61,690 nt of DNA, taken from the NCBI GenBank assembly GCA_947088345.1, contig CAMUGE010000011.1, positions 1-61,690 of the forward strand. Reading direction: 5' to 3'. The notes under the pieces are model-generated. The model made no database searches. It was not told where the DNA came from and worked only from the letters and a program-made list of their open reading frames with translations. A program made the translations under genes and the position numbers. Positions within the stretch are counted from its first letter, which is position 1. Every line of letters begins with the position of its first letter. Positions 338-52,672 of the stretch are shown one piece after another. Source of the stretch: an uncultured Roseburia sp. GTDB taxonomy: Bacteria; Bacillota; Clostridia; Lachnospirales; Lachnospiraceae.

Positions 338-348
338 GTAATAGTCTA

Positions 349-486
349 GTGTGAGAAGAACTTTTAAAGCTCGCAGCAGATCCTGCTTCGCTGAGAAGTT
401 CTAAGTCTCACACCAGAGAATCTCCAAAAACAGGGGATTCTCCGCGCAGATTTAAGTCGCGGCAGAGCCGCGACATGGGAGTTAGC
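349..486 (+). repeat. Structured three-hairpin element, copy A
   Basis: Stem I pairs 349-363 with 396-413 (8 + 7 bp, interrupted by the unpaired bases AAG at 403-405) and encloses a small hairpin at 375-387. Hairpin II pairs 416-425 with 433-442. Hairpin III pairs 456-463 with 467-474 (GTCGCGGC/GCCGCGAC). A tail ATGGGAGTTAGCG follows at 475-487. Two related copies lie at 44806-44963 and 45013-45152, with different bases in the stems but the same pairing. No protein is implied. It could be a structured RNA leader or a small palindromic mobile repeat; the sequence does not decide. Confidence 0.8.
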
Positions 487-567
487 GTAGAAGAAACCCC
501 TGGTCTGCGTTTTCAATATTATAATAAAAGAGACGCACTGACAGTTTGCGTCAGAAATGAGGAAGAG

Positions 568-1638
568 ATGGCGAAGAAAAACATTCTGGTGGTTTTTGGG
601 GGGATTTCCCCGGAGTACAGCGTTTCGTTGGAATCGGCATATGCAGTGATCAAAAATCTGGACGGTGAAAAGTATCACATTGTGCCGGCCGGTATCTCAA
701 AACAGGGAACATGGTATTATTTTACCGGGGATATCGAAAAAATCAGAGAGGATACCTGGTGTAATAAGGCGGATTGTGTTCCGGCCGTATTATCGCCGGA
801 TCGAAGCGAACATAAACTGCTGCTATTTGAAAACGGACAGGTTGGCGGCATTCCGGTTGATCTTGTCTTTCCTGTGCTGCACGGAAAAGGCGGCGAGGAC
901 GGTACGGTGCAGGGACTTGCCGAGCTTGCGGGTATTCCGCTGGTTGGATGCGGCGTACTTGCCTCGGCGCTCTGTATGGATAAGGATCGTGCCCACAAAC
1001 TGGCGCATCTGTCAGGCGTCCGCGTGCCGAAAGCGCTTGTGCTTACGGACAGAAAGAAGAGCGGGAGAGCGGCGGTTTTTGCGGAGAGTATAGGATATCC
1101 CGTTTTTGTAAAACCGGTGAGGGCAGGATCTTCTTTCGGAATTTCCAGAGTCTGTACAGAGGAACAGTTGTCTTTTGCCGTAGCCCTGGCATTTTCCTAT
1201 GACGACCAGGTCATTGTGGAGGAAGAAATTACAGGATTTGAAGTCGGCTGCGCCGTGCTGGGCAATCGTGAACTTCTCGTCGGGGAAGTGGACGAGATTG
1301 AGCTGTCGGGAGGTTTTTTTGATTATACGGAAAAATATACGCTGAAAACATCAGCAATCCATGTGCCTGCCAGGATTGATCGGCAGATGGCGGTCGAGAT
1401 TCAGCTTTGTGCAAAAAAGATATATCGGGCGCTTGGATGCAGCGGTTTTGCACGGGTTGATTTCTTTTTGACGCCAGAGGGGGAGATTGTGTTTAATGAG
1501 GTGAACACGATACCCGGCTTTACCGAGCACAGTCGTTATCCTGCGATGATGCAGGCAGCCGGATATACGTTCGGGGAAATTTTAGAAAAACTTACGGCGC
1601 AGGCGTTGGAGGAGGGGCTGAATGCAGGAAAAAAATAG
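568..1638 (+). CDS. vanG: VanG-type D-alanine--D-serine ligase
   Basis: ATP-grasp ligase joining D-alanine to D-serine (or D-alanine) in the cytoplasm to make the dipeptide end of the peptidoglycan precursor. The 356-residue protein has the N-terminal VFGGISPEYSVSLES motif, the omega-loop segment FFDYTEKYTLKTS that I associate with VanG/VanC-type D-Ser ligases rather than the D-Lac type, and the C-terminal metal-binding stretch FNEVNTIPGFTEHSRYP. I start at 568 because GAGGAAG lies just upstream and the conserved protein begins there; the frame stays open back to 475, but that part falls in the structured repeat. The end overlaps the racemase gene by 17 nt, so they are translationally coupled. 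No vanXY, vanR or vanS gene is adjacent, so it may be a cryptic or non-resistance pair. D-Ser specificity is inferred by resemblance. Confidence 0.85.
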   Translation: MAKKNILVVFGGISPEYSVSLESAYAVIKNLDGEKYHIVPAGISKQGTWYYFTGDIEKIREDTWCNKADCVPAVLSPDRSEHKLLLFENGQVGGIPVDLVFPVLHGKGGEDGTVQGLAELAGIPLVGCGVLASALCMDKDRAHKLAHLSGVRVPKALVLTDRKKSGRAAVFAESIGYPVFVKPVRAGSSFGISRVCTEEQLSFAVALAFSYDDQVIVEEEITGFEVGCAVLGNRELLVGEVDEIELSGGFFDYTEKYTLKTSAIHVPARIDRQMAVEIQLCAKKIYRALGCSGFARVDFFLTPEGEIVFNEVNTIPGFTEHSRYPAMMQAAGYTFGEILEKLTAQALEEGLNAGKK

Positions 1639-3820
1639 ATATGCCGGGATAGACGCTTTTCGCATTCCGGCTGCGATTCTTGTTGTGGCGATTCATACTT
1701 CTCCGTTTGCTGTTTTTAGTGATTCGGCGGATTTTTTTCTCACAAGGGTGCTTGCGCGTATTGCGGTTCCGTTCTTTTTTATGATTACGGGTCAGTTTGT
1801 GCTGTCAGATTATCTGACCGAAACATGGGAACCGTTTGTCAAAATCGGAAAATATCTGAAAAAAATGTTGGTTTTCTATGGTATTTCGATTCTTTTGTAT
1901 CTTCCGATTGGCATTTATGCGGGACATTATAAGAATCTGACAATTCCCCTGCTTTTTAAGATGATTGTTTTTGACGGTACATTTTATCATTTGTGGTATT
2001 TTCCGGCATGCATGGTCGGTATATTGCTGCTTTGTCTGTTAAAGCGATTTTTTACGATCCGGGGGATGTATGCAGCGGCGGGGCTATTGTATGCGGCGGG
2101 TTTATTCGGCGACAGTTACTATGGGCTGGCAGAGAAAATTCCGGCAGCTGCTTCGATTTATGAGGCGGGATTTTCCATCTGGTCGTATACGAGGAACGGT
2201 TTGTTTATGGCGCCTGTCTTTTTTCTGTGCGGTGTTTATGCCGGACGCTGTAAATCCTGCATTGGCAGCAAAAAAGTACGCAAAAAAAGATTTTGCGCCT
2301 GTTTATGTTTTGCGGTATCGTTTCTTCTGATGACAGCGGAGGCGTTTACGCTGCGCTATTTTGATATGCAGCGCCATGACAGTATGTATGCGCTGCTGAT
2401 CCCGGTTGTAATATTTTTTTATCAGATGCTGCTGTTGGGGCCATGCCGGAAAGAAAAGGATTCCTGGATGGAGCGTACGGTTTCGCTAGTGATATATATT
2501 ATCCATCCGGCCATCATTGTTGCGCTGCGGCTTGCCGCGAAAGTAAGCGGATTTTCTGCGCCGGCAGAAAACAGCCTTGTCCAGTTTGCGCTGACTGCCG
2601 TTTTATCGTATGCGGCCGCGTATGTGATTGCAGTTATATTGCGCCGTATCAGACAGAGCAGAGAACGGAAAAAACAGGAAATGTTAAAGAGCAGAACATG
2701 GGTGGAGATTGATTCGGATGCGCTCGGCAATAATGTTAAGTTTATCCGTAATATTTTGCCGGAGAATTGTAAACTGATGCCTGCGGTAAAGGCGAATGCT
2801 TACGGACATGGCGATGTTAAGATTGCATCCTGTTTGCGCCGTATGGGAGTCGACGCGTTCTGTGTGGCATGTGTCAATGAGGGGGTAAGGCTGCGCCGCG
2901 CCGGAATTGGCGGCGAGATACTTGTTTTGGGTTATACGCATCCTGTACAGTTTGATTTGCTGCGCAGGTATTGTCTGTCGCAGACAGTAGTTGATTCTGC
3001 ATATGCGAAACAGCTGCAGCTATATGGAAAGAAACTTCATGTGCATATCGGTATTGATACCGGAATGCACCGTCTTGGGGAGCGATGGGAAAATACCGAG
3101 GAGATTCTTCAGATCTTTCGAATTAAAAATCTGATCGTGGACGGCATTTATACGCACCTGTCCGCAGATGAGGAAAAAGGGGAAGCCAATCGTCAGTTTA
3201 CGATGAGCCAGGCTGCACATTTTTCCATGGTGTTGGACGAGTTGAAAGAACATGGGATTCGACAGCCCAAAGTCCATATGCAGGCCAGCTACGGCGTCTT
3301 CAATTACCCTGCTCTTTGCGGCGATTATGCAAGAGTCGGGATTGCGCTTTATGGTGTCTTAAGCACAGGAGAGGATACTGCAGAGTGGAGAGAAGCGTTA
3401 AAGCCGGTTCTTTCGCTAAAGACAAGGGTAGCGTCGGTCAGAGAAATTTATGCGGGAGAGACGGCCGGATATGGATTTTCTTTTACTGCAAAGCGCACGA
3501 TGAAAATTGCGGCTCTTTCCATTGGCTATGCTGACGGCTTTCCGCGCATGCTCTCAAACGGAAAAGGAGCTGTCTTAATCCGCGGCAGTATTGCTCCTGT
3601 GGTCGGAATGGTATGCATGGATCAGACGCTTGTCGATGTGACAGAAATCGCGGATGTCTGCACCGGGGATGTTGCTGTTGTAATCGGAATTTCTCAGGAA
3701 AAGGAAATTTCTGTCTGCGATCTGGCACAACGTTTGGGCACGATCACAAATGAGATTTTAAGCCGTATCGGCGAACGGGCCGAACGAGTTACAATAAATG
3801 GCTTCAGGTGCAGAAATTGA
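1622..3820 (+). CDS. vanT: VanT-type membrane-bound serine/alanine racemase
   Basis: Two-domain protein of 732 residues that would supply D-serine to the ligase. Residues about 1-345 form an acyltransferase-3-like membrane domain with roughly ten hydrophobic segments (opening YAGIDAFRIPAAILVVAIHT); in VanT this part is thought to bring in L-serine. From about residue 354 it is a fold III PLP-dependent alanine racemase: AVKANAYGHG holds the PLP lysine (Lys390), and IGYADGFPR and GMVCMDQTLVDVT are family motifs. The ATG at 1622 lies inside the ligase gene and is preceded by GGAGGAGGGG. The racemase domain alone could also make D-Ala, so the preferred amino acid is inferred from the partner gene. 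Confidence 0.88.
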   Translation: MQEKNRYAGIDAFRIPAAILVVAIHTSPFAVFSDSADFFLTRVLARIAVPFFFMITGQFVLSDYLTETWEPFVKIGKYLKKMLVFYGISILLYLPIGIYAGHYKNLTIPLLFKMIVFDGTFYHLWYFPACMVGILLLCLLKRFFTIRGMYAAAGLLYAAGLFGDSYYGLAEKIPAAASIYEAGFSIWSYTRNGLFMAPVFFLCGVYAGRCKSCIGSKKVRKKRFCACLCFAVSFLLMTAEAFTLRYFDMQRHDSMYALLIPVVIFFYQMLLLGPCRKEKDSWMERTVSLVIYIIHPAIIVALRLAAKVSGFSAPAENSLVQFALTAVLSYAAAYVIAVILRRIRQSRERKKQEMLKSRTWVEIDSDALGNNVKFIRNILPENCKLMPAVKANAYGHGDVKIASCLRRMGVDAFCVACVNEGVRLRRAGIGGEILVLGYTHPVQFDLLRRYCLSQTVVDSAYAKQLQLYGKKLHVHIGIDTGMHRLGERWENTEEILQIFRIKNLIVDGIYTHLSADEEKGEANRQFTMSQAAHFSMVLDELKEHGIRQPKVHMQASYGVFNYPALCGDYARVGIALYGVLSTGEDTAEWREALKPVLSLKTRVASVREIYAGETAGYGFSFTAKRTMKIAALSIGYADGFPRMLSNGKGAVLIRGSIAPVVGMVCMDQTLVDVTEIADVCTGDVAVVIGISQEKEISVCDLAQRLGTITNEILSRIGERAERVTINGFRCRN

Positions 3821-6026: not shown

Positions 6027-7055
6027 ATGAAAGACCGCTATGGAAGAACGATAAATTATATGAGAATCTCCGTCGCCAGAGACTGTAATCTAAGCTGCAG
6101 ATACTGTATGCCGCCGGGAGAGCAGCGCGAGGTTTCCGGAAAGCTTTTATCTGATTCTGAAATACTGCGCGTGGCAAAAGCTGCTGCAGAGCTTGGGATT
6201 ACGCGGTTTAAACTGACCGGGGGAGAGCCGCTGATGCGTCCGGGGATTGTACGGCTTGCCGCGGCAATCAGGGCGTTTCCTGACACGGAGGCCGTCACAG
6301 TTACAACAAACGGCGTGCTGCTTGCCAAATTAGCAAAAGATTTAAAAAAAGCAGGCGTAGACGCGGTAAACGTCAGCCTGGATACGCTCGATCCCTCTTA
6401 TTTTCAATGGCTGACCGGACATGACGCGTTGGAGAGAGTGATAGAAGGGATAGAAGCTGCGCAGGCGGCGGGCCTATTTGTCAAATTAAATGCAGTCCAG
6501 GGGCGTCAGGCGGACGGAAGAGAGCTGATTTGTTTTGCGCAGCGGAGAGGACTGATCATTCGGTTTATTGAGATGATGCCTGTCGGATACGGAAAAAATT
6601 TTGTTTCGGAGGAAAAGGCGGATTTGTTTTCTTTTCTGCGGCAGCATTATGGAAAGGCGGAGCGCATAGATAAGAGAGAGTGGACGGGGGGCGCCGCCGG
6701 GGCGGCGGATGCGCTGCCTGCTTTTCGTTTTGGGGCCGGTCTCTGTTTTGGAGCAGGACCGGCCGAGTACTACAGGTTTGAAAAGCTGCGTTGTCCGGTC
6801 GGGCTGATACGTGCAGTAACTCATCAGTTTTGCAGTACCTGTAACCGGATTCGGCTGACCGGGGAGGGACGGCTGAAACTTTGTCTTTCCTATCAGGACG
6901 GCGTCGATTTGCGGCCGGATTTGGAGCGCGGCGTCGGAGACGGAGAGTTAATTGAGATGATGGAACAGGCGATCTTCATGAAACCGAGACGGCATTGCTT
7001 TATGGAGCCGGAAAAGATGACGGAACAGGGGGCTATGATTTCAATTGGAGGTTAG
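6027..7055 (+). CDS. moaA: GTP 3',8-cyclase MoaA
   Basis: Radical SAM enzyme that rearranges GTP in the first step of molybdopterin synthesis. CNLSCRYC near the N-terminus holds the SAM-binding [4Fe-4S] cysteines (CxxxCxxC); FCSTCNRIRLT followed by KLC holds the second cluster (Cx2Cx13C), which is diagnostic for MoaA. KLTGGEPLMRPG is the GGEP motif. Length 342 is normal. The ATG at 6027 follows the previous stop by 1 nt; the frame is open much further upstream but only as an overlap with the moeA-like gene. The usual C-terminal double glycine is present (SIGG). Last pathway gene before the MOSC-XdhC fusion. Confidence 0.95.
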   Translation: MKDRYGRTINYMRISVARDCNLSCRYCMPPGEQREVSGKLLSDSEILRVAKAAAELGITRFKLTGGEPLMRPGIVRLAAAIRAFPDTEAVTVTTNGVLLAKLAKDLKKAGVDAVNVSLDTLDPSYFQWLTGHDALERVIEGIEAAQAAGLFVKLNAVQGRQADGRELICFAQRRGLIIRFIEMMPVGYGKNFVSEEKADLFSFLRQHYGKAERIDKREWTGGAAGAADALPAFRFGAGLCFGAGPAEYYRFEKLRCPVGLIRAVTHQFCSTCNRIRLTGEGRLKLCLSYQDGVDLRPDLERGVGDGELIEMMEQAIFMKPRRHCFMEPEKMTEQGAMISIGG

Positions 7056-7085
7056 CTTCAATACAGGCGCGAACGGAGGTTAGCA

Positions 7086-8537
7086 GTGGGAACAGTGAAA
7101 GCAATCTGTATCAGTGAGAAGAGAGGTACCCGGAAGAAACGGGTGGAGCAGGCGGAATTTGTTGAGAGCTGGGGCATCAGAGGGGATGCGCATGCAGGGA
7201 ACTGGCACAGGCAGGTCAGTCTGTTGTCTTTTGAAAAAATACAGCAATTTCGGGAACGCGGAGCGGATGTTGATTATGGGGCGTTTGGTGAAAATCTGGT
7301 GATAGAGGGTTATGACTTTGCACGTCTGCCGCTCGGAACCAGAGTTTTGTGCAATGAAGTGCTGCTTGAAATCACGCAGATCGGAAAAGAGTGTCACAGC
7401 CACTGTGAAATTTATAAAAAGATGGGTGAATGCATTATGCCGTCAGAGGGCGTATTTGCAGTTGTTTTAAAAGGCGGACGAATTGCGGAAGGGGAGACGG
7501 CAGTGTGCATTCCGGCAAATCTTTTCCGGACGATTGCAGGTCGTGCAGCGGATGCGGACTGTATTCTTGCGACTGTTACGGATGGGGAAAATCCGGGTGA
7601 ACAGGCGCTTTGGATTGACGGGATCTTACGCTGGAACAGCGCTTCTGACGCTTTTTTTTCGAAACACGCCAGGCGGTTTCTTGACGCAGGCAAAAGCGAT
7701 CTGCTTTCGATTGAGGGCCGCAGTGTTTTCTGTGAAAAAATCGGCGGCAGGAAAAATCTGGTTGTCTGCGGTGCGGGACATGTATCTGTACCAATCATCG
7801 CTACAGGAAAACGTCTTGGTTTTTTTGTTACGGCGATTGACGATCGGGAAGCGTTTGCACAGACAGCAGAAAGAGCCGGTGCGGACGAGGTGTACTGCGA
7901 ATCATTTGCGACTGCAGTGGAGCGGGTGAGCGGAAGCCGCGACACATATTTTGTGATTGTGACAAGAGGGCATCAGTATGATATCGAGTGTCTGCGTATT
8001 GCTTTAAAAAAGGCGCACGCCTATATCGGGATGATGGGCAGCAGAAAGCGTGCAAAAGCCGTAAAAGAGCAATTGCGCGCAGAGGGTGTGCCGGAGAAAC
8101 TGTTAGAGCAGATTCACGCGCCAATCGGGATAGCAATCGGGGCAGAGTCGCCGGAGGAAATTGCCATATCGGTGATGGCCCAGATTATTCAGACGAAGAA
8201 CAGCGAAAAGAGAATCGGAACTTATGATGCCAGGCTTATGGATTATCTGACCAAAGAAAAAGGAGCCGGGAAAGCGATGGCGCTCTGTACGATCGTGGAA
8301 AAACACGGATCTGCGCCGCGGGAAGTCGGTACAAAAATGCTTGTCTTAGAAGACGGCAGTCTTATCGGAACGATTGGAGGGGGGACGGCGGAGCATAAAA
8401 TCCGTGAAGAAGCGCTTGCTATGCTGCGAGAGGGCAAAACATTCTGTCAAAAGAAACTGGAACTGACAGCAGGCGATGCAGCAGGACAGGGGATGGTCTG
8501 CGGCGGATCGATCGTTGTAATTCTGCAAAAAATGTAA
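7086..8537 (+). CDS. MOSC domain - XdhC/CoxI fusion protein
   Basis: Multidomain protein of 483 residues, probably for maturing a molybdenum hydroxylase (xanthine-dehydrogenase type). Residues about 1-147 are a MOSC domain (molybdenum sulfurase C-terminal fold) with the cysteine-bearing KECHSHCEIY. Residues about 150-220 look like a worn XdhC_CoxI domain that has lost its motifs. About 224-375 is the XdhC Rossmann domain (VVCGAGHVSVPII, VTRGHQYD, GMMGSRKRA). About 390-483 is an intact XdhC_CoxI domain (HGSAPREVGTKM, IGTIGGGTAEHKI). XdhC normally runs CoxI then Rossmann, so the good copy is in the reverse position. GTG start at 7086 behind CGGAGGT. The hydroxylase itself is not in the window. 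Confidence 0.85.
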   Translation: MGTVKAICISEKRGTRKKRVEQAEFVESWGIRGDAHAGNWHRQVSLLSFEKIQQFRERGADVDYGAFGENLVIEGYDFARLPLGTRVLCNEVLLEITQIGKECHSHCEIYKKMGECIMPSEGVFAVVLKGGRIAEGETAVCIPANLFRTIAGRAADADCILATVTDGENPGEQALWIDGILRWNSASDAFFSKHARRFLDAGKSDLLSIEGRSVFCEKIGGRKNLVVCGAGHVSVPIIATGKRLGFFVTAIDDREAFAQTAERAGADEVYCESFATAVERVSGSRDTYFVIVTRGHQYDIECLRIALKKAHAYIGMMGSRKRAKAVKEQLRAEGVPEKLLEQIHAPIGIAIGAESPEEIAISVMAQIIQTKNSEKRIGTYDARLMDYLTKEKGAGKAMALCTIVEKHGSAPREVGTKMLVLEDGSLIGTIGGGTAEHKIREEALAMLREGKTFCQKKLELTAGDAAGQGMVCGGSIVVILQKM

Positions 8538-13340: not shown

Positions 13341-16300
13341 TTATTTATTATTTGCCTGCAGGTTTTTGTTTGCCTGCAAGTTTTTACCTGCAGTGGATAA
13401 CATCAGTTTAATCCGGTTTAACTGGTTTACTTCGCTCGCTCCCGGATCATAATCAATCGCGACGATATTTGAGTTTGGATAGCGGTGGCGCAGTTCCTTG
13501 ATGACGCCTTTTCCAACCACATGGTTTGGCAGGCAGGCAAACGGCTGTGTACATACAATATTTGGTGTGCCGTTCTCAATCAGCTCCAGCATTTCGCCGG
13601 TTAAAAACCATCCCTCTCCCGTCTGGTTTCCTTCGGATACAATGTCCCGTGCGGCGTCGGCAAGATTGTCGATATGTGCAGGGACGTCAAAATGTCTGCT
13701 CTTTTTAAACTCTTCTTTTGCGGTGCGCCGCAGCCATTCCAGAAATGCGATTCCCATGCGTCCAAACCGTTTTGATTTTTTGCTCATGCCAAGTGCATCG
13801 GCACGAAAGCCGGTGTTGTAGAAGCAGTAGAGAAGAAAATCAGTCAGGTCGGGCACTACGGCCTCTGCGCCTTCCGATTCCAGCAGTTCCACCAGATGAT
13901 TATTTGCAGCCGGGTGAAACTTAACCAGAATCTCTCCGACAATGCCGACGCGCGGTTTTTGTACGCTGACGCGCGGCAGATTGTCAAAATCCCGTATAAT
14001 ATCGCGGCAGAGCTTTTTGTATTTTTTATGCGAGAGTGTTTTAGGCTGTGTGATAAAGCGGACAACTTCTTTTTTCCATTTTTTATGCAGCGCATCGGCC
14101 GAACCTGCGACGGCTTCATAGGGGCGCGTCGCATAGAGGCAGCGCATAAAGATATCGCCGAATACAAGGGCGTAAAGCCCGTGCTGCAAAAGCGGGAGCG
14201 TCAGCTTAAAGCCGGGATTTGACTCAAGACCGCTTAAGTTAATGGAGATCACGGGCACATCCGGATATCCGGCTTTCTCGAGAGCGCGTCGGATAAAGCC
14301 CACGTAATTGGAAGCGCGGCAGCCTCCCCCGGTCTGCGACATCAGGATTGCGGTTTTTGACATATCGTACTCGCCGGACATTACGGCTGCCATCATCTGA
14401 CCGACCACAATCAGCGACGGATAGCAGGCGTCGTTATTGACAAAGCGCAGTCCGGCGTCCACACTGGTGCGTGCCGAAACATCGGGTATCACAAGGCGGT
14501 AACCCGCTGCTTTAAATGCCGGTTCCAACAATTCAAAATGGATCGGAGACATCTGAGGGCAGAGTATCGTATAATTTTTGCGCATTTCTTCCGTAAAAAC
14601 AACACGGCGATAGGAGCTTGGCACAACAGTGCGTTTTGACTGTTTTTTCTCACGGACGCGTATGGCCGAGATCAGTGAACGGATTCTTATTCTTGCCGCG
14701 CCCAGATTGTTTACTTCGTCAATCTTTAAGCAGGTGTAGATTTTGCCGGAATCCGATAAAATATCGTTGACCGCGTCCGTAGTAACCGCGTCTAAACCGC
14801 ATCCGAATGAATTGAGCTGGATCAGATCCAAATCGTCTCTTGTCTTGACAAAATTTGCGGCAGCATACAGGCGGGAATGGTACATCCACTGATCCATTAC
14901 AATCAGCGGCCGCTCCACTTCGTGCAGATGCGAAACGGAATCTTCGGTCAGCACGGCAATGCCGTAGGAATTAATCAGTTCGGGTATGCCGTGGTTGATC
15001 TCCGGGTCTGTGTGGTAGGGGCGTCCCGCAAGTACAATACCGCGCATATTATGCTCCTCTATATATGCAAGGACTTCTTCCCCTTTTTTCTGCACTTCCA
15101 TGCGGACGGCGGCAAGTTCCTTGTATCCCTCCGAGACAGCGTCGCGCACTGCGGATTCCGGGATTCCAAATTCCTCGCCGCAAAATGTTTTTACAAGCTG
15201 CATAGACAGCGCGTCTTCGCTTGCAAACGACATAAACGGGTTGTAGAACCTGACCTGCCCGGACGTGATCTCGTCCACATTATTTTTGATGTTTTCTGCA
15301 TAGGAGGTGACAATCGGGCAGTTGTAGTGGTTGTTGGAATCCGGAAATTCATCTCTTTCATATGGGATACACGGATAAAAGATAAAATCAACATTCTGAT
15401 GAATCAGCCAGTTAATATGTCCGTGCGCCAGTTTAGCCGGGTAGCACTCCGATTCGCTTGGGATTGAATCAATTCCAAGCTCGTATATTTTTCGGGTTGA
15501 CTGCGGCGAGAGTACAACGCGAAAACCGAGTTTTTCAAAGAAAACAGCCCAAAACGGGTAATTTTCATACATATTCAGCACGCGCGGGATACCGACAGTT
15601 CCGCGCATGGCCAGATCTGCGGATAATGGTTTGTAGTCAAACAGACGTTTATTTTTATATTCAAACAGATTGGGTATATTTTCTTTATTTTTTTCTTTGC
15701 CAAGGCCGCGCTCACAGCGGTTTCCTGTAATATATCTGCGGTTTCCGGAAAAACGGTTGATGGTCAGCAGACAATGGTTGGTGCAGCTCTGGCATCTTGT
15801 CAGTTTTGTGTCAAAGGTTAGTTCGTTGATTGCCTCAATCGAGAGCATTGTTGTCTTAGCGCCGCTCTCATAGCGTTCGCGGGCAATCAGCGCTGCGCCG
15901 AAAGCGCCCATGATACCGGCGATATTTGGCCTTACGCATTCCAGACCCGATATTTTCTCAAAACTGCGCAGTACGGCGTCATTGTAAAAAGTACCGCCCT
16001 GAACTACAATATTTTTTCCAAGGTCGCCGGGATTCGAAAGCTTTATCACTTTAAACAGAGCGTTCTTGATGACGGAGTAGGCAAGGCCCGACGAGATATC
16101 GGCAACGCTTGCGCCTTCTTTTTGGGCCTGTTTTACTTTTGAGTTCATAAATACGGTACAGCGGGTTCCAAGATCAATCGGATTTTTTGCGAAGAGAGCT
16201 TCTTTTGCAAAATCTTCGACCGAATAGTTTAACGATTTTGCAAATGTTTCAATGAAAGACCCGCAGCCTGACGAGCAGGCTTCATTCAGCTGGACGCTGT

Positions 16301-17615
16301 CTACCGTCTGATTTTTTATTTTGATGCATTTCATGTCCTGTCCGCCGATATCGAGAATACAGTCGACCTTTGGATTGAAAAAGGCGGCGGCATAGTAATG
16401 CGCAACTGTCTCAACCTCGCCATCGTCAAGCATCAGCGCGGCTTTTAAGAGCGCTTCGCCGTAGCCGGTGGAGCAGGAACGTACAATCGAGGCGTCTTTT
16501 GGCAAAAGAGAATAGATTTCTTTGATGGAACGTATCGCCGTGGACAGAGGGCTGCCGTTATTGCTGCTGTAAAACGAGTAGAGCAGCGAGCCGTCTTCTC
16601 CGACAAGGGCGATTTTTGTCGTAGTGGAACCGGCGTCAATTCCAAGAAAGCAGTTGCCCCGGTACGAGGCGAGATCTGCAGCTTTCACATTGTGTCCGTT
16701 GTGGCGTGTTGTAAATGCGTCATATGTTTTCTGATCTGTAAATAGCGGTTCCATACGCGCAACTTCAAATTCCATCCGGATATCGGACGATAGTTTTTGT
16801 ACCAGCTCTTTTAACGTAATCACGGAATCTTCCTTATAATTGAGCGCAGAACCGATCGCTGCGAACAAATGTGAATTTTCCGGCAATATGGCATGTTCGT
16901 CGTCCAGATGCAGAGTGCGGATGAATGCGGCACGCAATTCGGACAGGAAATGCAGCGGGCCGCCCAGAAAAGCGACATGTCCGCGAATCGGTTTGCCGCA
17001 GGCAAGACCGCTGATTGTCTGGTTGACAACAGCCTGAAAAATGGAGGCGGAAAGGTCCTCTCTGGTAGCCCCTTCGTTGATTAACGGCTGGATGTCTGTT
17101 TTGGCAAACACGCCGCAGCGCGCGGCGATTGGGTAAATTGCCTTGAACTCTTTTGCATATTCATTTAATCCGGTGGCGTCTGTCTGGATCAGCGAGGCCA
17201 TCTGGTCGATAAACGAGCCGGTTCCGCCCGCGCAGATTCCGTTCATGCGCTGTTCCACATTTGTGCCTTCAAAGTAAATTATTTTTGCATCCTCCCCGCC
17301 GAGTTCGATTGCAACGTCTGTCTGCGGCGCATTGTGGCGCAGTGCAGTCGAGACGGAGATCACTTCCTGTACAAACGGGATATTGAGATGGTTTGCAAGC
17401 GTAAGCCCGCCGGACCCTGTAATCATGGGCGCTGCAGTCAGATCGCCCAGTTTATCAAACGCTTTTTGGATCAGAGAAGATAATGTTTCCCGGATATTGG
17501 CAAAATGTCTCTCATAGTCTGAAAATAAAAGATTGTCGTGTTCGTCGAGGACAGCGACTTTTACCGTGGTCGAGCCGATATCGATCCCTAATTTATGAAG
17601 TATATTTTTTTTCAT
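13341..17615 (-). CDS. Giant 2-hydroxyacyl-CoA dehydratase activase (BadF/BcrA x2, DUF2229, HgdB-like)
   Basis: Fused protein of 1424 residues. Two ASKHA activase domains open with [17 protein letters not shown] (about 10) and [16 protein letters not shown] (about 330); each has a cluster cysteine ([12 protein letters not shown] and [12 protein letters not shown]). A DUF2229 region follows ([18 protein letters not shown]), then a region like the dehydratase subunit HgdB ([17 protein letters not shown]). Single activases fire one electron into 2-hydroxyacyl-CoA dehydratases using ATP; what these fusions act on is not settled. Start at 17615 behind GGAGG on the minus strand. The C-terminus has a short tandem repeat ([12 protein letters not shown]). 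No separate dehydratase genes lie nearby. Confidence 0.88.
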
Positions 17616-17804
17616 GAGAATCCTCCATAGCAGTATGTTCACAAATCTGCTGTTTTTACCTGCAGAATGTAAGTGTTTCTACCTATTATAATAAGAATAA
17701 TTCATATGGCGCGAACAATGTACATTATACGACAGGATTTGTCAAAAGACAATGTGTAAAAGCAGGAAAAATATAAAGTTTTTATGAAGAGCACGGGGCA
17801 GCGA

Positions 17805-27118: not shown

Positions 27119-27154
27119 ATATGATATTCTATGGAACAGAAAGGGTGGCTGCAT

Positions 27155-44796: not shown

Positions 44797-44805
44797 CGGA
44801 AGATA

Positions 44806-44963
44806 GTGTGAGAAGAACTTCTAAAGATCGCAGCAGATCCGCTAACGCGAAACAGGTTCGCGCGCTAAGAAGTTCTAAGTCTCACACCAGAGAATCCCCT
44901 GTTTTTGGGGATTCTCCGCGCAGATTTGAGTCGCGGCTCTGCCGCGACATGGAGGTTAGCGTG
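44806..44963 (+). repeat. Structured three-hairpin element, copy B
   Basis: Stem I: 44806-44822 with 44868-44887, 17 bp plus the unpaired AAG at 44877-44879; inside it CGCGAA (44846-44851) pairs with TTCGCG (44857-44862). Hairpin II: 44890-44899 with 44907-44916, 10 bp perfect. Hairpin III: 44930-44937 with 44941-44948. Tail ATGGAGGTTAGCGTG at 44949-44963, which reads like a ribosome binding site with a GTG start followed by eight codons and a stop. Begins 10 nt after the Ppx-like gene. Confidence 0.85.
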
Positions 44964-45010
44964 AAATTAAAAATTTCACAATCCTGATTTGTATGCCCGC
45001 CAAAGCGGGC
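44961..45010 (+). repeat. Linker hairpins between copies B and C
   Basis: GTGAAATT/AATTTCAC (44961-44979, loop AAA) and GCCCGC/GCGGGC (44995-45000 with 45005-45010, loop CAAA). The second stands in the same place before an ATGGGAGTTAGCGTG tail as hairpin III does in the full copies, so this may be the remnant of another unit. Confidence 0.65.
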
Positions 45011-45012
45011 GT

Positions 45013-45152
45013 ATGGGAGTTAGCGTGAAAAGTACTTGTAAGGTTCATGCCAGAGTGCAAAACGCGAAACAGGTTCGCGCGCCAATAAGTACTAAGTATC
45101 ACGCCGAAAAACGCCAAAAACAGGCGTTTTTCACACGTGAACTTGTTCACGT
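45013..45152 (+). repeat. Structured three-hairpin element, copy C
   Basis: Tail ATGGGAGTTAGCGTG (45013-45027) merges into stem I: 45023-45037 with 45087-45104, one A-A mismatch, and again an unpaired AAG (45094-45096). Inner CGCGAA/TTCGCG at 45063-45079. Hairpin II: AAAAACGCC/GGCGTTTTT (45107-45131). Hairpin III: ACGTGAAC/GTTCACGT (45135-45152). The arms of II and III share no sequence with copies A and B, yet pair perfectly. Confidence 0.82.
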
Positions 45153-45165
45153 TGGCTATATTGTG

Positions 45166-45254
45166 CCGAGAACGTCACAAATTAGCCCTGATCCGACAGG
45201 AGAAGCTGCATTCGCAGATTTCTCTTGCGGTTCCTCGAACGTAAACGTTCTCGG
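45166..45254 (+). promoter_or_regulatory. Large hairpin in the ppk leader
   Basis: CCGAGAACGT (45166-45175) pairs with ACGTTCTCGG (45245-45254); inside it GAGAAGCTGC (45200-45209) pairs with GCAGATTTCTC (45214-45224, one small bulge). It ends 13 nt before the ppk start and 3 nt before its ribosome binding site, so it could affect translation of ppk. Confidence 0.65.
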
Positions 45255-45267
45255 AATGGAGAGTTTC

Positions 45268-47418
45268 ATGGACAAAAAAATTGATTTTGCAAATCCGCAA
45301 TTTTATGAGAACCGCGAACTCAGCTGGCTGAAGTTTAACGTAAGGGTTTTGAACGAGGCGAGAGATAAGAAGATTCCGCTTTTGGAACGTCTGAAATTTG
45401 TAAGCATTACTTCGTCCAACCTGGATGAATTTTTTATGGTTCGCGTTGCGTCGTTAAAAGATATGGTACATGCCGATTATAAAAAACCAGATATAGCGGG
45501 AATGACAGCGAGAGAACAGCTTGCCGCTATTAACAGCAATACAAGAGAGCTGGTAAATCAGCAGTATCAGACTTACAACCGGTCTCTGGCGCCGCTCTTA
45601 AATCAGAACGGCATCTATGTAATTGATGCTTATGAGAAGCTGGATGATCAGCAGGCGGAGTATGTTGACCGTTATTTTATGGAAAATGTGTATCCGGTGC
45701 TGACGCCGATGGCTGTGGATGCGTCAAGGCCGTTTCCGTTAATCCGCAATAAGACATTAAATATTGCGGCGCTTCTCTCGAGAAAGGAGACGGGAAATAA
45801 GGAGCTTGTAAAGAAAGGCAAAGACGCTCTGGAATTTGCCACAGTTCAGGTGCCGGGAGGTCTGCCTCGCCTTGTGTCAGTGCCGTCAGAGGAGGGAAGC
45901 CATACATTTATACTGTTGGAGCAGGTGATCGAAAAGAATATTGACAGATTGTTTTTAAATTATAATGTGCTTGGCGCTTATCCATATCGTATTATGCGCA
46001 ATGCAGATCTTTCAATTGATGAGGACGAGGCGGAAGACCTGTTAAAGGAAATCCAAAAACAGCTGAAAAAACGACAGTGGGGAGAGGTAATCCGTCTTGA
46101 AATTGAGGCAAACGCAAACAAAAAGCTGCTGCGCTTCCTGAAATCGGAGTTAAAAGTTGCCGAAGAAGATATTTATGAGATTCAGGGACCGATTGATTTT
46201 ACATTTCTGATGAAGATGTACGGCATGGAAGGGTATGACCATTTGCGCTACGAGCCGTACAAGCCGCAGCGCATCCCTAAAATCGAATCGAGTGACAATA
46301 TTTTTGAAACGATCAAAAGAGGCGATATTCTGCTGCATCATCCGTATCAGACATTTGAACCTGTCGTCGAGTTTATCCGCCAGGCGGCAAAGGACCCGGA
46401 TGTGCTTGCCATCAAGCAGACGCTCTACCGCGTCAGCGGTAATTCTCCGATTATTGCTTCCCTGGCGCAGGCGGCCGAGAACGGCAAGCAGGTATCGGTG
46501 CTGGTGGAGCTTAAGGCGAGATTTGACGAGGAGCATAATATTGTCTGGGCAAAGAAACTGGAGCAGGCAGGATGTCATGTCATCTATGGCCTTGTCGGAC
46601 TAAAGACGCACAGCAAGATTGCGCTGGTTGTAAGGAACGAGGAGGAGGGAATCCGCCGCTATGTACATCTGGGCACCGGAAATTATAATGATTCTACGGC
46701 GAAGCTTTATACGGACTGTGGAATTTTTACCTGCAATGAAGCGATTGGCGAAGACGCGACGGCAGTATTTAATATGTTAAGCGGATACTCCGAGCCGTTA
46801 TCGTGGAATGAACTGTCGTTGGCTCCGCTGTGGCTGCGCGCAAAGTTTATGCGTTTAATCGAGCGCGAGACAAAACACGCAAAGGCGGGCAAACCGGCAA
46901 AAATTGTTGCGAAGATGAATTCTCTCTGCGACGAGGGAATTATCGCCGCACTGTATGCGGCATCGGCGGCAGGCGTTCAAATTCAGCTGATTGTGCGCGG
47001 AATATGCTGTATCAAAGTCGGTATCCCGGGTGTCAGCGAGAATATTGAGGTGCGTTCGATTGTCGGAAATTTTTTGGAGCACAGCAGGATTTTCTATTTT
47101 GCAAACGACGGGCAGGAAGAAATCTATATGGGCAGCGCCGACTGGATGCCGCGCAATCTCGACAGGCGTGTGGAAATTCTTTTTCCGGTACTAAATGAGG
47201 AGATCAGGAAAGAGGTAAAACATATTCTGGATGTGGAGCTTTTGGACAACACGAAAGCGAATATTCTCTGCCCGGACGGGAATTACGAAAAAGTTGACAA
47301 GCGGGGAAAGCTGCTGGTCAATTCTCAGATGCAGTTTTGCAAAGAGGCGACCGAAGCAGCTCCAAAGCAGGAACATATTTATAAGGAGAGAGTGTTTGTG
47401 CCGGCGGAACCGGTATAG
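45268..47418 (+). CDS. ppk1: Polyphosphate kinase Ppk1
   Basis: Reversibly makes polyphosphate from ATP, 716 residues, normal length. N domain: NRELSWLKFNVRVLNEA, SNLDEFFMVRVASLKD. Head and catalytic domains: DILLHHPYQTFEPVVEF, IKQTLYRVSGNSPII, VLVELKARFDEEHNI; the autophosphorylated histidine is in LKTHSKIALVVR; YVHLGTGNYND and the second HxK-type region NFLEHSRIFYF follow. I choose the ATG at 45268 behind GGAGAG. The frame stays open to 44989, but only through the repeat array, so that extension is not coding. Forms a pair with the Ppx-like gene. Confidence 0.95.
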   Translation: MDKKIDFANPQFYENRELSWLKFNVRVLNEARDKKIPLLERLKFVSITSSNLDEFFMVRVASLKDMVHADYKKPDIAGMTAREQLAAINSNTRELVNQQYQTYNRSLAPLLNQNGIYVIDAYEKLDDQQAEYVDRYFMENVYPVLTPMAVDASRPFPLIRNKTLNIAALLSRKETGNKELVKKGKDALEFATVQVPGGLPRLVSVPSEEGSHTFILLEQVIEKNIDRLFLNYNVLGAYPYRIMRNADLSIDEDEAEDLLKEIQKQLKKRQWGEVIRLEIEANANKKLLRFLKSELKVAEEDIYEIQGPIDFTFLMKMYGMEGYDHLRYEPYKPQRIPKIESSDNIFETIKRGDILLHHPYQTFEPVVEFIRQAAKDPDVLAIKQTLYRVSGNSPIIASLAQAAENGKQVSVLVELKARFDEEHNIVWAKKLEQAGCHVIYGLVGLKTHSKIALVVRNEEEGIRRYVHLGTGNYNDSTAKLYTDCGIFTCNEAIGEDATAVFNMLSGYSEPLSWNELSLAPLWLRAKFMRLIERETKHAKAGKPAKIVAKMNSLCDEGIIAALYAASAAGVQIQLIVRGICCIKVGIPGVSENIEVRSIVGNFLEHSRIFYFANDGQEEIYMGSADWMPRNLDRRVEILFPVLNEEIRKEVKHILDVELLDNTKANILCPDGNYEKVDKRGKLLVNSQMQFCKEATEAAPKQEHIYKERVFVPAEPV

Positions 47419-51304: not shown

Positions 51305-52504
51305 TCAACCTGATTTTCTCTGTTTTCCATGCATATCCGCTTCTTTGAAGTCTAAGATTTTTGCCATCTGCTCCGCCGCACGGTCATAGCTGGCATGAGT
51401 GTAGACATTTAGCGTAACGCCTACATCGGAATGTCCCATTACATATTGCAAAGTCTTAATGTCCATTCCTGCATTTGCCATGTTGGTACAGAACGTATGC
51501 CGAAATACATGGGGCGTGATGTGTGGCAACGGTTTATTCGGATATAGCTTCTTATATTTCTTCATTGCCCACCGCATTTCGTTCTCGATATGTAATGCCA
51601 CTTTCGGGTGATTGTCTTTGTCAATCAGAAGAAAACCGCTGTAACCGTCTATGATTGCTTCTGTATTCAATTTCGAACGGTTGGCAAGGATATTCTTCAA
51701 GCTGTGATACACTTCCTCTGTCATCGGGATAAAACGGCATCCGCACTCTGTTTTTGTTTTTTCCACATAATATTTTCCGCCCCGTTCCCTGACAAGCTGC
51801 TTGTCAACACGGATTTTTCGATTTTGGAAATCAAGGTCATTTTTTGTCAAGCCACAAAATTCGCTGACACGCATTCCTGTTCCCAACAGCACGACAAATT
51901 CATCATAATACTTACAGTAGGTTTTATCCTCACGGATAAAACTCATCCAAAGTTTCTGCTGTTCCTCTGTCATGGCGATACGCTTCTGTGAATCGTTTGG
52001 CACAACATCAACCAGCTTAAAATCAAATGGATTCCTGCGGATAATGTCCTCATTATATGCCATCTGAAAAGCAGGCTTTACAACGCCCCTGACACTTGTA
52101 ATGGTACTGTATCCTTTTCCGTCATTATGCATCTTCATAATCCACTGTTGTGCATCCGATACCTTAATATCTCTTATCTGGCGGTAGCCGAAATCTTCTT
52201 TTTTAATCAGATTCAGCACAAAATTGTATCCGACTTTGGTATTGTAGCGTACACCCTGTTTCAAACTGATATAGCGTTCCAAGAGGGCAATAACGGTAAC
52301 TTCTCCAGCGGCATAATCAATTCCATCGTCAAGCTGCTTTTGGATTACCTTTTCCTTTTCCCGCAGTTCCTTCAAATCAGAAGAATAAATGGTCTGCCTC
52401 TTTCCGTGGATATCCGTATAGCGGTACTGATAAATCAGGTCTTTTCTCTGGCTCTCTCCTGTCTTTAAGACTCGTCCTTTATTGTCTTTTCGTTTCTCAG
52501 ACAT
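51305..52504 (-). CDS. int: Tn916-family tyrosine integrase
   Basis: Site-specific recombinase of 399 residues. The N-terminal arm-binding domain (DNKGRVLKTGESQRKDLIYQYRYTD) and core-binding domain resemble Tn916 Int; the catalytic domain has LLGTGMRVSEFCGL (first Arg), HITPHVFRHTFCTNMA (HxxR), GHSDVGVTLNVYTHAS (His and nucleophilic Tyr). I start at 52504 behind AAAGGAG; the longer frame to 52597 runs into the hairpin spacer. It would insert and excise the island together with the excisionase encoded upstream. Confidence 0.93.
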   Translation of the reverse strand: MSEKRKDNKGRVLKTGESQRKDLIYQYRYTDIHGKRQTIYSSDLKELREKEKVIQKQLDDGIDYAAGEVTVIALLERYISLKQGVRYNTKVGYNFVLNLIKKEDFGYRQIRDIKVSDAQQWIMKMHNDGKGYSTITSVRGVVKPAFQMAYNEDIIRRNPFDFKLVDVVPNDSQKRIAMTEEQQKLWMSFIREDKTYCKYYDEFVVLLGTGMRVSEFCGLTKNDLDFQNRKIRVDKQLVRERGGKYYVEKTKTECGCRFIPMTEEVYHSLKNILANRSKLNTEAIIDGYSGFLLIDKDNHPKVALHIENEMRWAMKKYKKLYPNKPLPHITPHVFRHTFCTNMANAGMDIKTLQYVMGHSDVGVTLNVYTHASYDRAAEQMAKILDFKEADMHGKQRKSG

Positions 52505-52549
52505 TTTCAAACTCCTTTCCGTGGTGGAAAGAGCCTTGATATGACGATA

Positions 52550-52672
52550 TGCAGCGAACGCAAAAATACAAGGGCAACAATGGCAGCTTGCTGTCATATT
52601 GTTGGCATTGTATTTTTATGTGAGTGCAACGACAGCGAGAAACATCGTTTCGAGCTGACGTTCGCTGCATTT
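52550..52672. repeat. 123-bp hairpin element between xis and int
   Basis: ATGCAGCGAACG (52550-52561) and CGTTCGCTGCAT (52661-52672) are perfect 12-bp inverted ends. Inside, AAAAATACAA/TTGTATTTTT, CAACAAT/ATTGTTG and GGCAGC/GCTGTC form one long nested hairpin, and a CGAGAAAC/GTTTCG hairpin follows. In Tn916 xis and int nearly touch; here 243 nt separate them. Structured regulatory RNA or a MITE-like insertion are both possible. Confidence 0.65.

Follow-up and report, generated by a model that had tools for sequence, protein, structure and literature searches.

Tandem hairpin units between ppx and ppk of a Roseburia genome belong to a large, apparently undescribed family of Lachnospiraceae repeats that are probably mobile DNA

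Several classes of small bacterial repeats are built on hairpins. The palindrome-associated elements derived from IS200/IS605 have hairpins near both ends, lie in one orientation and insert 3' of a short motif without target duplication. The attC sites are recombined as folded sites with unpaired bases on one arm, occur in tandem and include the core box GTTRRRY. The REP sequences are presented, in two reports, as small palindromes that follow a conserved tetranucleotide (mostly GTAG) and are bulged in E. coli, and as mostly intergenic repeats of many copies that form composite arrays (PMC8266576; PMC2817692). The BOX, RUP and SPRITE repeats are noted, in a further report, to cluster and insert into one another, with 3'-region insertion and effects on mRNA also described (PMC10969869).

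The hairpin array between ppx and ppk of an uncultured Roseburia sp. is most readily explained as a set of small REP/MITE-like, non-autonomous mobile DNA elements that are moved in trans (probability about 0.72). The window, which is the whole 61,690-nt stretch analysed (contig CAMUGE010000011.1 of GCA_947088345.1), includes this array on the + strand at 44797-45267, between a Ppx/GppA-HD protein gene and a polyphosphate kinase gene (ppk). The original prediction, that these 471 nt are almost fully made of stems, is borne out: the stems are found, and the folding energy of the stretch is -195.5 kcal/mol, where shuffles average -134.2 (sd 6.9; z -8.9) and 0 of 100 are equal or better. The array starts with an old target or left flank (CGGAAGAT, 44797-44804) directly 3' of the ppx stop, where the sister species reads CGGAGGATTTTCATGG. 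Unit B follows with a stem I of head type 1 (44805-44888, AG + TGTGAGA/AGAACTTCT .. AGAAGTTCT-AAG-TCTCACA) that includes an inner hairpin (44846-44863), a hairpin II of the GAGAATCCCC allele (44890-44916), a hairpin III of the GTCGCGGC allele (44930-44948) and an SD-like tip (ATGGAGGTTAG, 44949-44959) that runs straight into the next unit. A short third module (about 44958-45021), composed of the stem CGTGAAATTAAAAATTTCACA, a linker, the hairpin GCCCGCCAAAGCGGGC and the tip ATGGGAGTT, separates B from unit C (45022-45132), which has a stem I of head type 2 (45024-45103) and a hairpin II of the GAAAAACGCC allele (45106-45132). The covariance model R1 matches unit B at 44804-44921 (71.6 bits) and unit C at 45021-45136 (67.8 bits). 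A second repeat type (45133-45263) completes the array, with a hairpin at about 45135-45152, large hairpins from 45154 and a tip in which GGAG (45258-45261) lies 6 nt 5' of the ppk ATG (45268). The further large hairpin originally noted at the ppk ribosome binding site is thus present (45154-45266), but it is the end of this second, dispersed repeat. The 3' portion of the array reads in frame into ppk and is open from a TTG (44989-47418, +, an 809-aa ORF), which is probably accidental. One further unit of the window (345-485, +, with the tip ATGGGAGTTAG at 475-485) lies just upstream of a D-Ala ligase-like gene; the region 475-3820 (+) encodes this ligase-like protein and then an acyltransferase plus alanine-racemase-like protein (Pfam), an arrangement similar to that of a vanG-type cluster.

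Copies B and C have an identity of 75% across 91 nt; common to both are an AAG bulge, a CGCGAA/TTCGCG hairpin and a ATGGNAGTTAGCGTG junction, as was originally reported of their shared architecture. The pattern of the inner hairpin is found twice in the window, where 0.01 would be expected. The junction motif, when up to 2 mismatches are allowed, is found 5 times in the whole window versus 5.65 expected and is not above chance; its exact matches in the window are both inside the array. The arms of hairpins II and III do differ between B and C, as first observed; these arms look unrelated because hairpins II and III come as alternative cassettes, which are found again in other copies. Hairpin II has one of the GAGAATCC.., GAGAAATGCC.. 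or GAAAAACGCC.. stems in 35 of 70 units of the own genome, and hairpin III has a GTYGCGGC.. or GATTCCGC.. allele in 35 of 70, counts that cover the named alleles and leave the remaining units unclassified. In copy B, the loops of both hairpins (44890-44948) run opposite to those of the other copies of their allele (1/18 for each), which may reflect strand switching or an assembly effect.

The core of the family is a bulged stem that encloses an inner hairpin, together with an adjoining hairpin. A typical unit is 100-145 nt in length with two or three hairpins: it starts with AG-YGTGA, has a stem of 8 bp, an AAG bulge, a further 9 bp and the inner hairpin, and continues into hairpin II, often with a third hairpin that ends in ATGGNGGTT(AG). 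The consensus of the 5' part is [T]AG-YGTGAGA-AGAACTTCT-AA-NNC-TC-NNNNN-AAAG-NNNNN-TTC-GNN-A-AGAAGTTCT-AAG-TCTCACR, and that of the 3' part is the adjoining hairpin II, often a GATTTGA-like linker, hairpin III and ATGGNGGTTAG. The extra CGCGAA/TTCGCG hairpin in the inner loop is found in the window copies and in many others of the own genome. In divergent genera, the stem and the adjoining hairpin are kept, often together with the CTAAG bulge, in largely different letters. Stop codons lie in three frames near the 5' end of the unit, and its tip is often SD-like. The units are stacked head to tail on one strand in the arrays that were read.

The hairpin repeats form a large family in many gut Lachnospiraceae that is apparently undescribed, as a full-text literature search, with most subscription papers and all preprints outside its scope, gave no recognisable description of it. 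Within the own genome, the 471-base query has 86 local matches (short opposite-strand palindrome matches included), and the terminal hairpin of the second repeat has 14 (the array copy included). A covariance model built from 65 heads yields at least 91 matches at E <=0.01 in about 3 Mb, with 150 of 885 candidates scored and the lowest-scoring matches weak. Tandem runs are among these copies, for example three copies spaced 134 bases on contig 21. The sister species (G032), of which 800 kb were searched, has 7 model matches at E <=0.001, including a weak one on the opposite strand that overlaps another. When one genome per genus is sampled, 17 of 250 genera of the family are matched, own genome included, with the weakest two (G576, G651) doubtful; in a phylum-wide sample, 1 of 398 genomes is matched, the window's own, and four others listed there are of the same family. 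As few candidates per genome were scored under strict filters (10 in the phylum scan and 16 in the family scan), these absences are soft and the copy numbers are minima. A search of 60 relatives with the DNA itself matches 6, own included, all of one genus. An exact 21-base pattern of the 3' arm matches at least 103 stretches of GTDB genomes and, among the matches listed, the record names are those of Lachnospiraceae, Roseburia, Parablautia muri, Blautia, Lachnoclostridium and Ruminococcus sp. MAGs. The family is confined to Lachnospiraceae as far as sampled. An origin from plasmids or phages was considered and set aside, with 0 matches of 44804-45154 in either by blastn; two pattern matches on viral contigs have no partner arm by eye and look like chance.

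Ordinary REP/BIME repeats, moved by a RAYT or by a Y1 transposase of the IS200/IS605 type whose gene happens to have escaped the draft assembly, would account for part of these observations. The TAG before a bulged palindrome, the high copy number and the modular arrays resemble REP sequences as portrayed in one report (PMC8266576); likewise, no terminal inverted repeats are seen and the target resembles the tip. By contrast, the own genome has 0 matches to Y1_Tnp (PF01797), and 9 of 14 further carriers likewise lack it, among them the records named as strains C-53 and 1xD42-87 (the other 5 have it), several carriers being incomplete draft MAGs, to which all mobiliser absences are subject; the units are also larger than REP sequences and stacked on one strand in the arrays read. 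This explanation is, thus, considered unlikely.

Other candidate enzymes fare no better as a common mobiliser: no mobilising enzyme was found, and Y1 transposase, IS110, integron integrase and reverse transcriptase are each rejected or unsupported in this role. IS110 (PF01548) is over the cut-off in 1 of 5 carriers, and the weak IS110 (DEDD) match of the own genome, below the cut-off, is the N-terminus of a 1433-aa BadF/BcrA-type ATPase with DUF2229 (13341-17642, -). Integron integrase (TIGR02249) is over the cut-off in 0 of 8 carriers and likewise in none of 14 control genomes, and the sub-cut-off matches found in all 8 carriers and all 14 controls are taken as ordinary tyrosine recombinases. 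Reverse transcriptase (PF00078), which a retroelement or a group II intron fragment would call for, is absent from the own genome, the sister and two others, and is present in 4 of 8 carriers. A tyrosine recombinase of 430 aa is also encoded in the window (51305-52597, -); its DNA-binding domain is of the Tn916 integrase type, and an integrative element may thus end nearby.

Filled and empty sites are exemplified by the sister species, in which Ppx is 97% identical and the ppx-ppk spacer (CGGAGGATTTTC) is 12 bases compared to 471 in the window. By eye, the 17 own arrays with both flanks mapped to the sister divide into 9 with an empty site, 7 shared (some decayed) and 1 unclear; the comparison draws on 40 stretches chosen regardless of the element and 18 loci of the sister, 17 of which were fetched for holding an element, such that the sampling favours 'shared'. 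The sister site that corresponds to window 345-485 is without the element. Conversely, a unit that is present only in the sister lies directly behind a stop codon, at a junction that is empty in the window (7047-7086, +): here, the TAG of GGAGGTTAG is the own stop of a 444-aa moaA-like gene, the next ORF (XdhC-like) starts with GTG at 7086, and the tip of the sister unit supplies a GGAGG 5' of the GTG. Six filled/empty pairs are clean (ppk, C21:5446, C4:51508, C1:62336, C16:47811 and C10:3706). The AG-YGTG of the element is lacking from three of the six empty sites (ppk, C21:5446 and C10:3706), and the other three already hold an AG-YGTG-like sequence (TAG/AAG + YGTGA) and may be loss scars. 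A different hairpin-rich spacer, perhaps of another repeat family, occupies 136 bases at one sister locus (L232) versus 12 at window 27119-27132.

Such sites bear on whether the units, instead of transposing, have spread mainly as old copies recombined or converted one another, and have been lost through deletions between TAGYGTG direct repeats. The hairpin cassettes common to several copies and the empty sites that retain TAGTGTGA are consistent with this route; however, the empty sites of ppk and C21:5446 have an intact ribosome binding site and no AGYGTGA, and recombination as the main route is regarded as doubtful.

In favour of elements moved in trans, the target resembles the tip. The empty sites, with the point of insertion marked as ^, read GGAGGAT^TTTC, GGAGGAT^TACG, AAGGAGAAAAG^CGTG, GGCGGTTAG^TGTG, GAGGGCGAGTAG^TGTG and GAGGAAGTA^AGTT, and resemble such tips as ATGGAGGTT, ATGGGGGTT and AATGGAG. 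The own array at C18:8089 and the window unit at 345 fit a Shine-Dalgarno (SD) target poorly. As regards target duplication, tip and target differ in several filled/empty pairs, and two copies of the second repeat type have GGAGAAT or GGAGGTTT on both sides. Heads were collected with fuzzy arm patterns (41 own and 102 other), the other-species loci having been fetched by the exact 21-base pattern, toward which their 3' arm is therefore biased. Among 101 heads of other species, tandem copies included, T (76), A (94) and G (93) prevail at -3 to -1, and position -4 is A in 50, T in 29, G in 13 and C in 9. The flank of other species has G at -8 in 0.54 of 79 compared to 0.20 at ORF ends and also prefers A at -5/-4 before the TAG, thus resembling the tip GGNGGTTAG. 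An SD 4-mer is found in 16 of 79 of these left flanks versus 13.5% (p = 0.06), a weak enrichment. Strict SD targeting as a family-wide rule is, thus, weakly supported, and is better described as a tendency.

The units are mostly oriented with their neighbours and often placed at stop codons. In other species, an upstream neighbour is called for 92 heads, of which 84 share its sense (8 are opposite), and 75 of 91 share that of the downstream neighbour; in the own genome, 27 of 34 are in the sense of the upstream neighbour and 7 are opposite. Eight heads (7 own and 1 other) are inside a mechanically called ORF. Among 70 first-of-array heads whose upstream gene runs in the same direction and for which a downstream gene is also called (ORF calls being mechanical), 50 have a stop codon within -20 to +8, compared to 21-24 expected if heads were spread evenly over the gap, and 7 of 10 heads between convergent genes are near a stop versus 0.9-1.8 expected. 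In 33 of the 50, the stop is within or across the first bases of the element (TAG 19, TGA 12 and TAA 2). This adjacency could arise from a TAG-containing target and selection against gene disruption. At the other end of the unit, a crude scan that also counts chance ATGG matches finds a tail-like ATGG motif in 92 of 143 heads, of which 30 have a start codon (ORF of at least 60 codons) 6-23 bases on, 26 run into the next unit and 36 do neither. Of the 14 copies of the second repeat type (L032-L045), 12 are seen by eye to have a GGAG 6-7 nt upstream of an ATG.

That the pairing is selected, as was claimed from the window copies, is supported by evidence that extends to divergent genera. In a 65-row seed alignment, 94.6% of cells are paired, with 198 two-sided changes versus 54 in shuffles; among 106 distinct copies aligned to the model, a set that overlaps with the seed, 96.1% are paired (365 versus 87); and among 35 rows drawn from 15 other genera, 92.6% are paired, 33 of 35 pairs are changed on both sides and two-sided changed cells number 288 versus 77, with the latter two alignments fitted to the model and the shuffle tests inflated by relatedness. 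Pairing falls to 34-51% when the partners are slid. The model-based alignments use 27 of 28 loci L293-L320 (without L305) and 99 of 103 loci L112-L214, the latter obtained with the exact 21-base pattern, and the 35-row set includes a few opposite-strand matches to units that it already contains.

Strong covariation alone is no proof of an RNA function. A hairpin that acts as RNA of one strand should have G-U outnumbering A-C. Instead, G-U accounts for about 1-4% of cells and A-C mismatches are about equal or commoner: G-U and A-C number 20 and 59 of 2274 cells in the seed (20 of the 59 A-C being from one pair), 31 and 72 of 3197 in the best 99 of 113 rows (93 distinct) of a further set, 21 and 18 of 902 in the best 28 of the 35 rows from other genera, and, in the own genome, 49 and 46 of 1511 in the best 48 of 68 rows or 75 and 60 of 1918 in the best 60, which include more weak rows. 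By contrast, 18 tRNAs from the fetched loci have 28 G-U (7%) and 0 A-C in 397 cells, an outcome that the ARAGORN scoring favours. For the outer stem alone, three sets disagree (G-U/A-C 2/13 of 1567, 7/2 of 452 and 9/4 of 781). The rarity of G-U and its balance with A-C point to DNA hairpins; selection would, thus, appear to act on both strands or on folded single-stranded DNA.

These pairs weigh against a structured cis-acting RNA, in which the units would be leader or intercistronic elements (attenuators, or processing or stability hairpins) that regulate genes such as ppk. The mostly sense orientation between co-directional genes, the strong covariation and the 7 of 17 sites common to the sister are compatible with an RNA; however, the ppx-ppk site of the sister has no array, 9 of the 17 comparable sites read as empty, and both strands fold about equally well (the complement of the 471 nt has a z of -9.7), and the pair types have no overall preference for the transcribed strand. 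A regulatory RNA role is, thus, quite improbable, and one specific to ppk is ruled out by the dispersed copies and the empty sister site. The original prediction knew of no named RNA family with this layout, and this remains so: among 4227 Rfam families, none matches the window above the gathering cut-off and none is convincing at E <=10 (best E 0.57, far below cut-off). The covariance-model and Rfam checks that it had proposed, now run, give matches across Lachnospiraceae and none in Rfam. Thus, its observation is confirmed and its interpretation is supported in part, as the implied RNA or ppk-leader reading is not supported, given the empty sister site, a unit found at dozens of sites in the genome and pairing with no overall strand preference.

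Integron-like attC or IS110-type non-autonomous elements are very unlikely, as the one-arm bulge, variable inner hairpin, insertion beside stop codons and tandem arrays with a repeated GTTAGYG junction are offset by attC boxes that go unmatched, by integron integrase over the cut-off in none of the 8 carriers (nor in any control) and by IS110 over the cut-off lacking from 4 of 5, with the weak own match being the BadF/DUF2229 protein.

Mobile, non-autonomous elements, therefore, remain the favoured reading of the array, with a mechanism of spread that is inferred. The hairpins, as folded single-stranded DNA, would be the substrates of a trans-acting recombinase that cuts 3' of a short motif similar to the 3' tip of the element itself. 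A unit would then come to lie between neighbouring genes, seemingly with no duplication of the target, and the downstream gene would keep a usable SD. At ppx-ppk, several modules would have been added since the sister species diverged, and the SD that now serves ppk is presumably the GGAG of the array tip. A more specific proposal, which is tentative, is of a Lachnospiraceae-specific single-stranded DNA mobile system with a non-Y1 enzyme, in which entry beside a stop codon or SD, stops in three frames and a tip that re-creates the SD would keep the units silent between genes and the operons translatable. The family allows a test of how small hairpin elements can spread when no transposase is recognised, and of the way in which insertion between a stop and a start codon is tolerated, and repeats at such density may shape operons in gut bacteria.

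Of the known systems, the family is closest to REP and MITE-like repeats, yet it departs from each in a tested feature, RAYT for the former and terminal inverted repeats for the latter. Like REP/BIME sequences associated with RAYT, the hairpin units are bulged palindromes that are intergenic, multicopy and arrayed; however, the carriers are often without a Y1/RAYT, and the 100-145-nt units have two or three hairpins and an SD-like tip. Unlike in BIMEs, own-genome matches within about 250 bases of one another are on one strand by eye and form no inverted pairs, and a further difference from REP sequences is that most units share the sense of their upstream gene. Similarly to the MITE-like ERIC, BOX, RUP and Correia repeats, the units are short, intergenic and dispersed, and these small units are polymorphic for insertion between related genomes; by contrast, their ends (AGYGTGA and ATGGNGGTT) are not complementary, no terminal inverted repeats are seen, no parental transposase is known and the target motif resembles the tip. 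The attC sites are alike in their one-arm unpaired bases, position after stop codons and tandem arrangement, but GTTAGYG agrees with GTTRRRY at 5 of 7 positions, a complementary box on the other arm is not seen by eye and no cassette genes are noted. The IS200/IS605-derived elements share with the hairpin units their end hairpins, single orientation and insertion at a motif, whereas the carriers of these units are often without a Y1 transposase.
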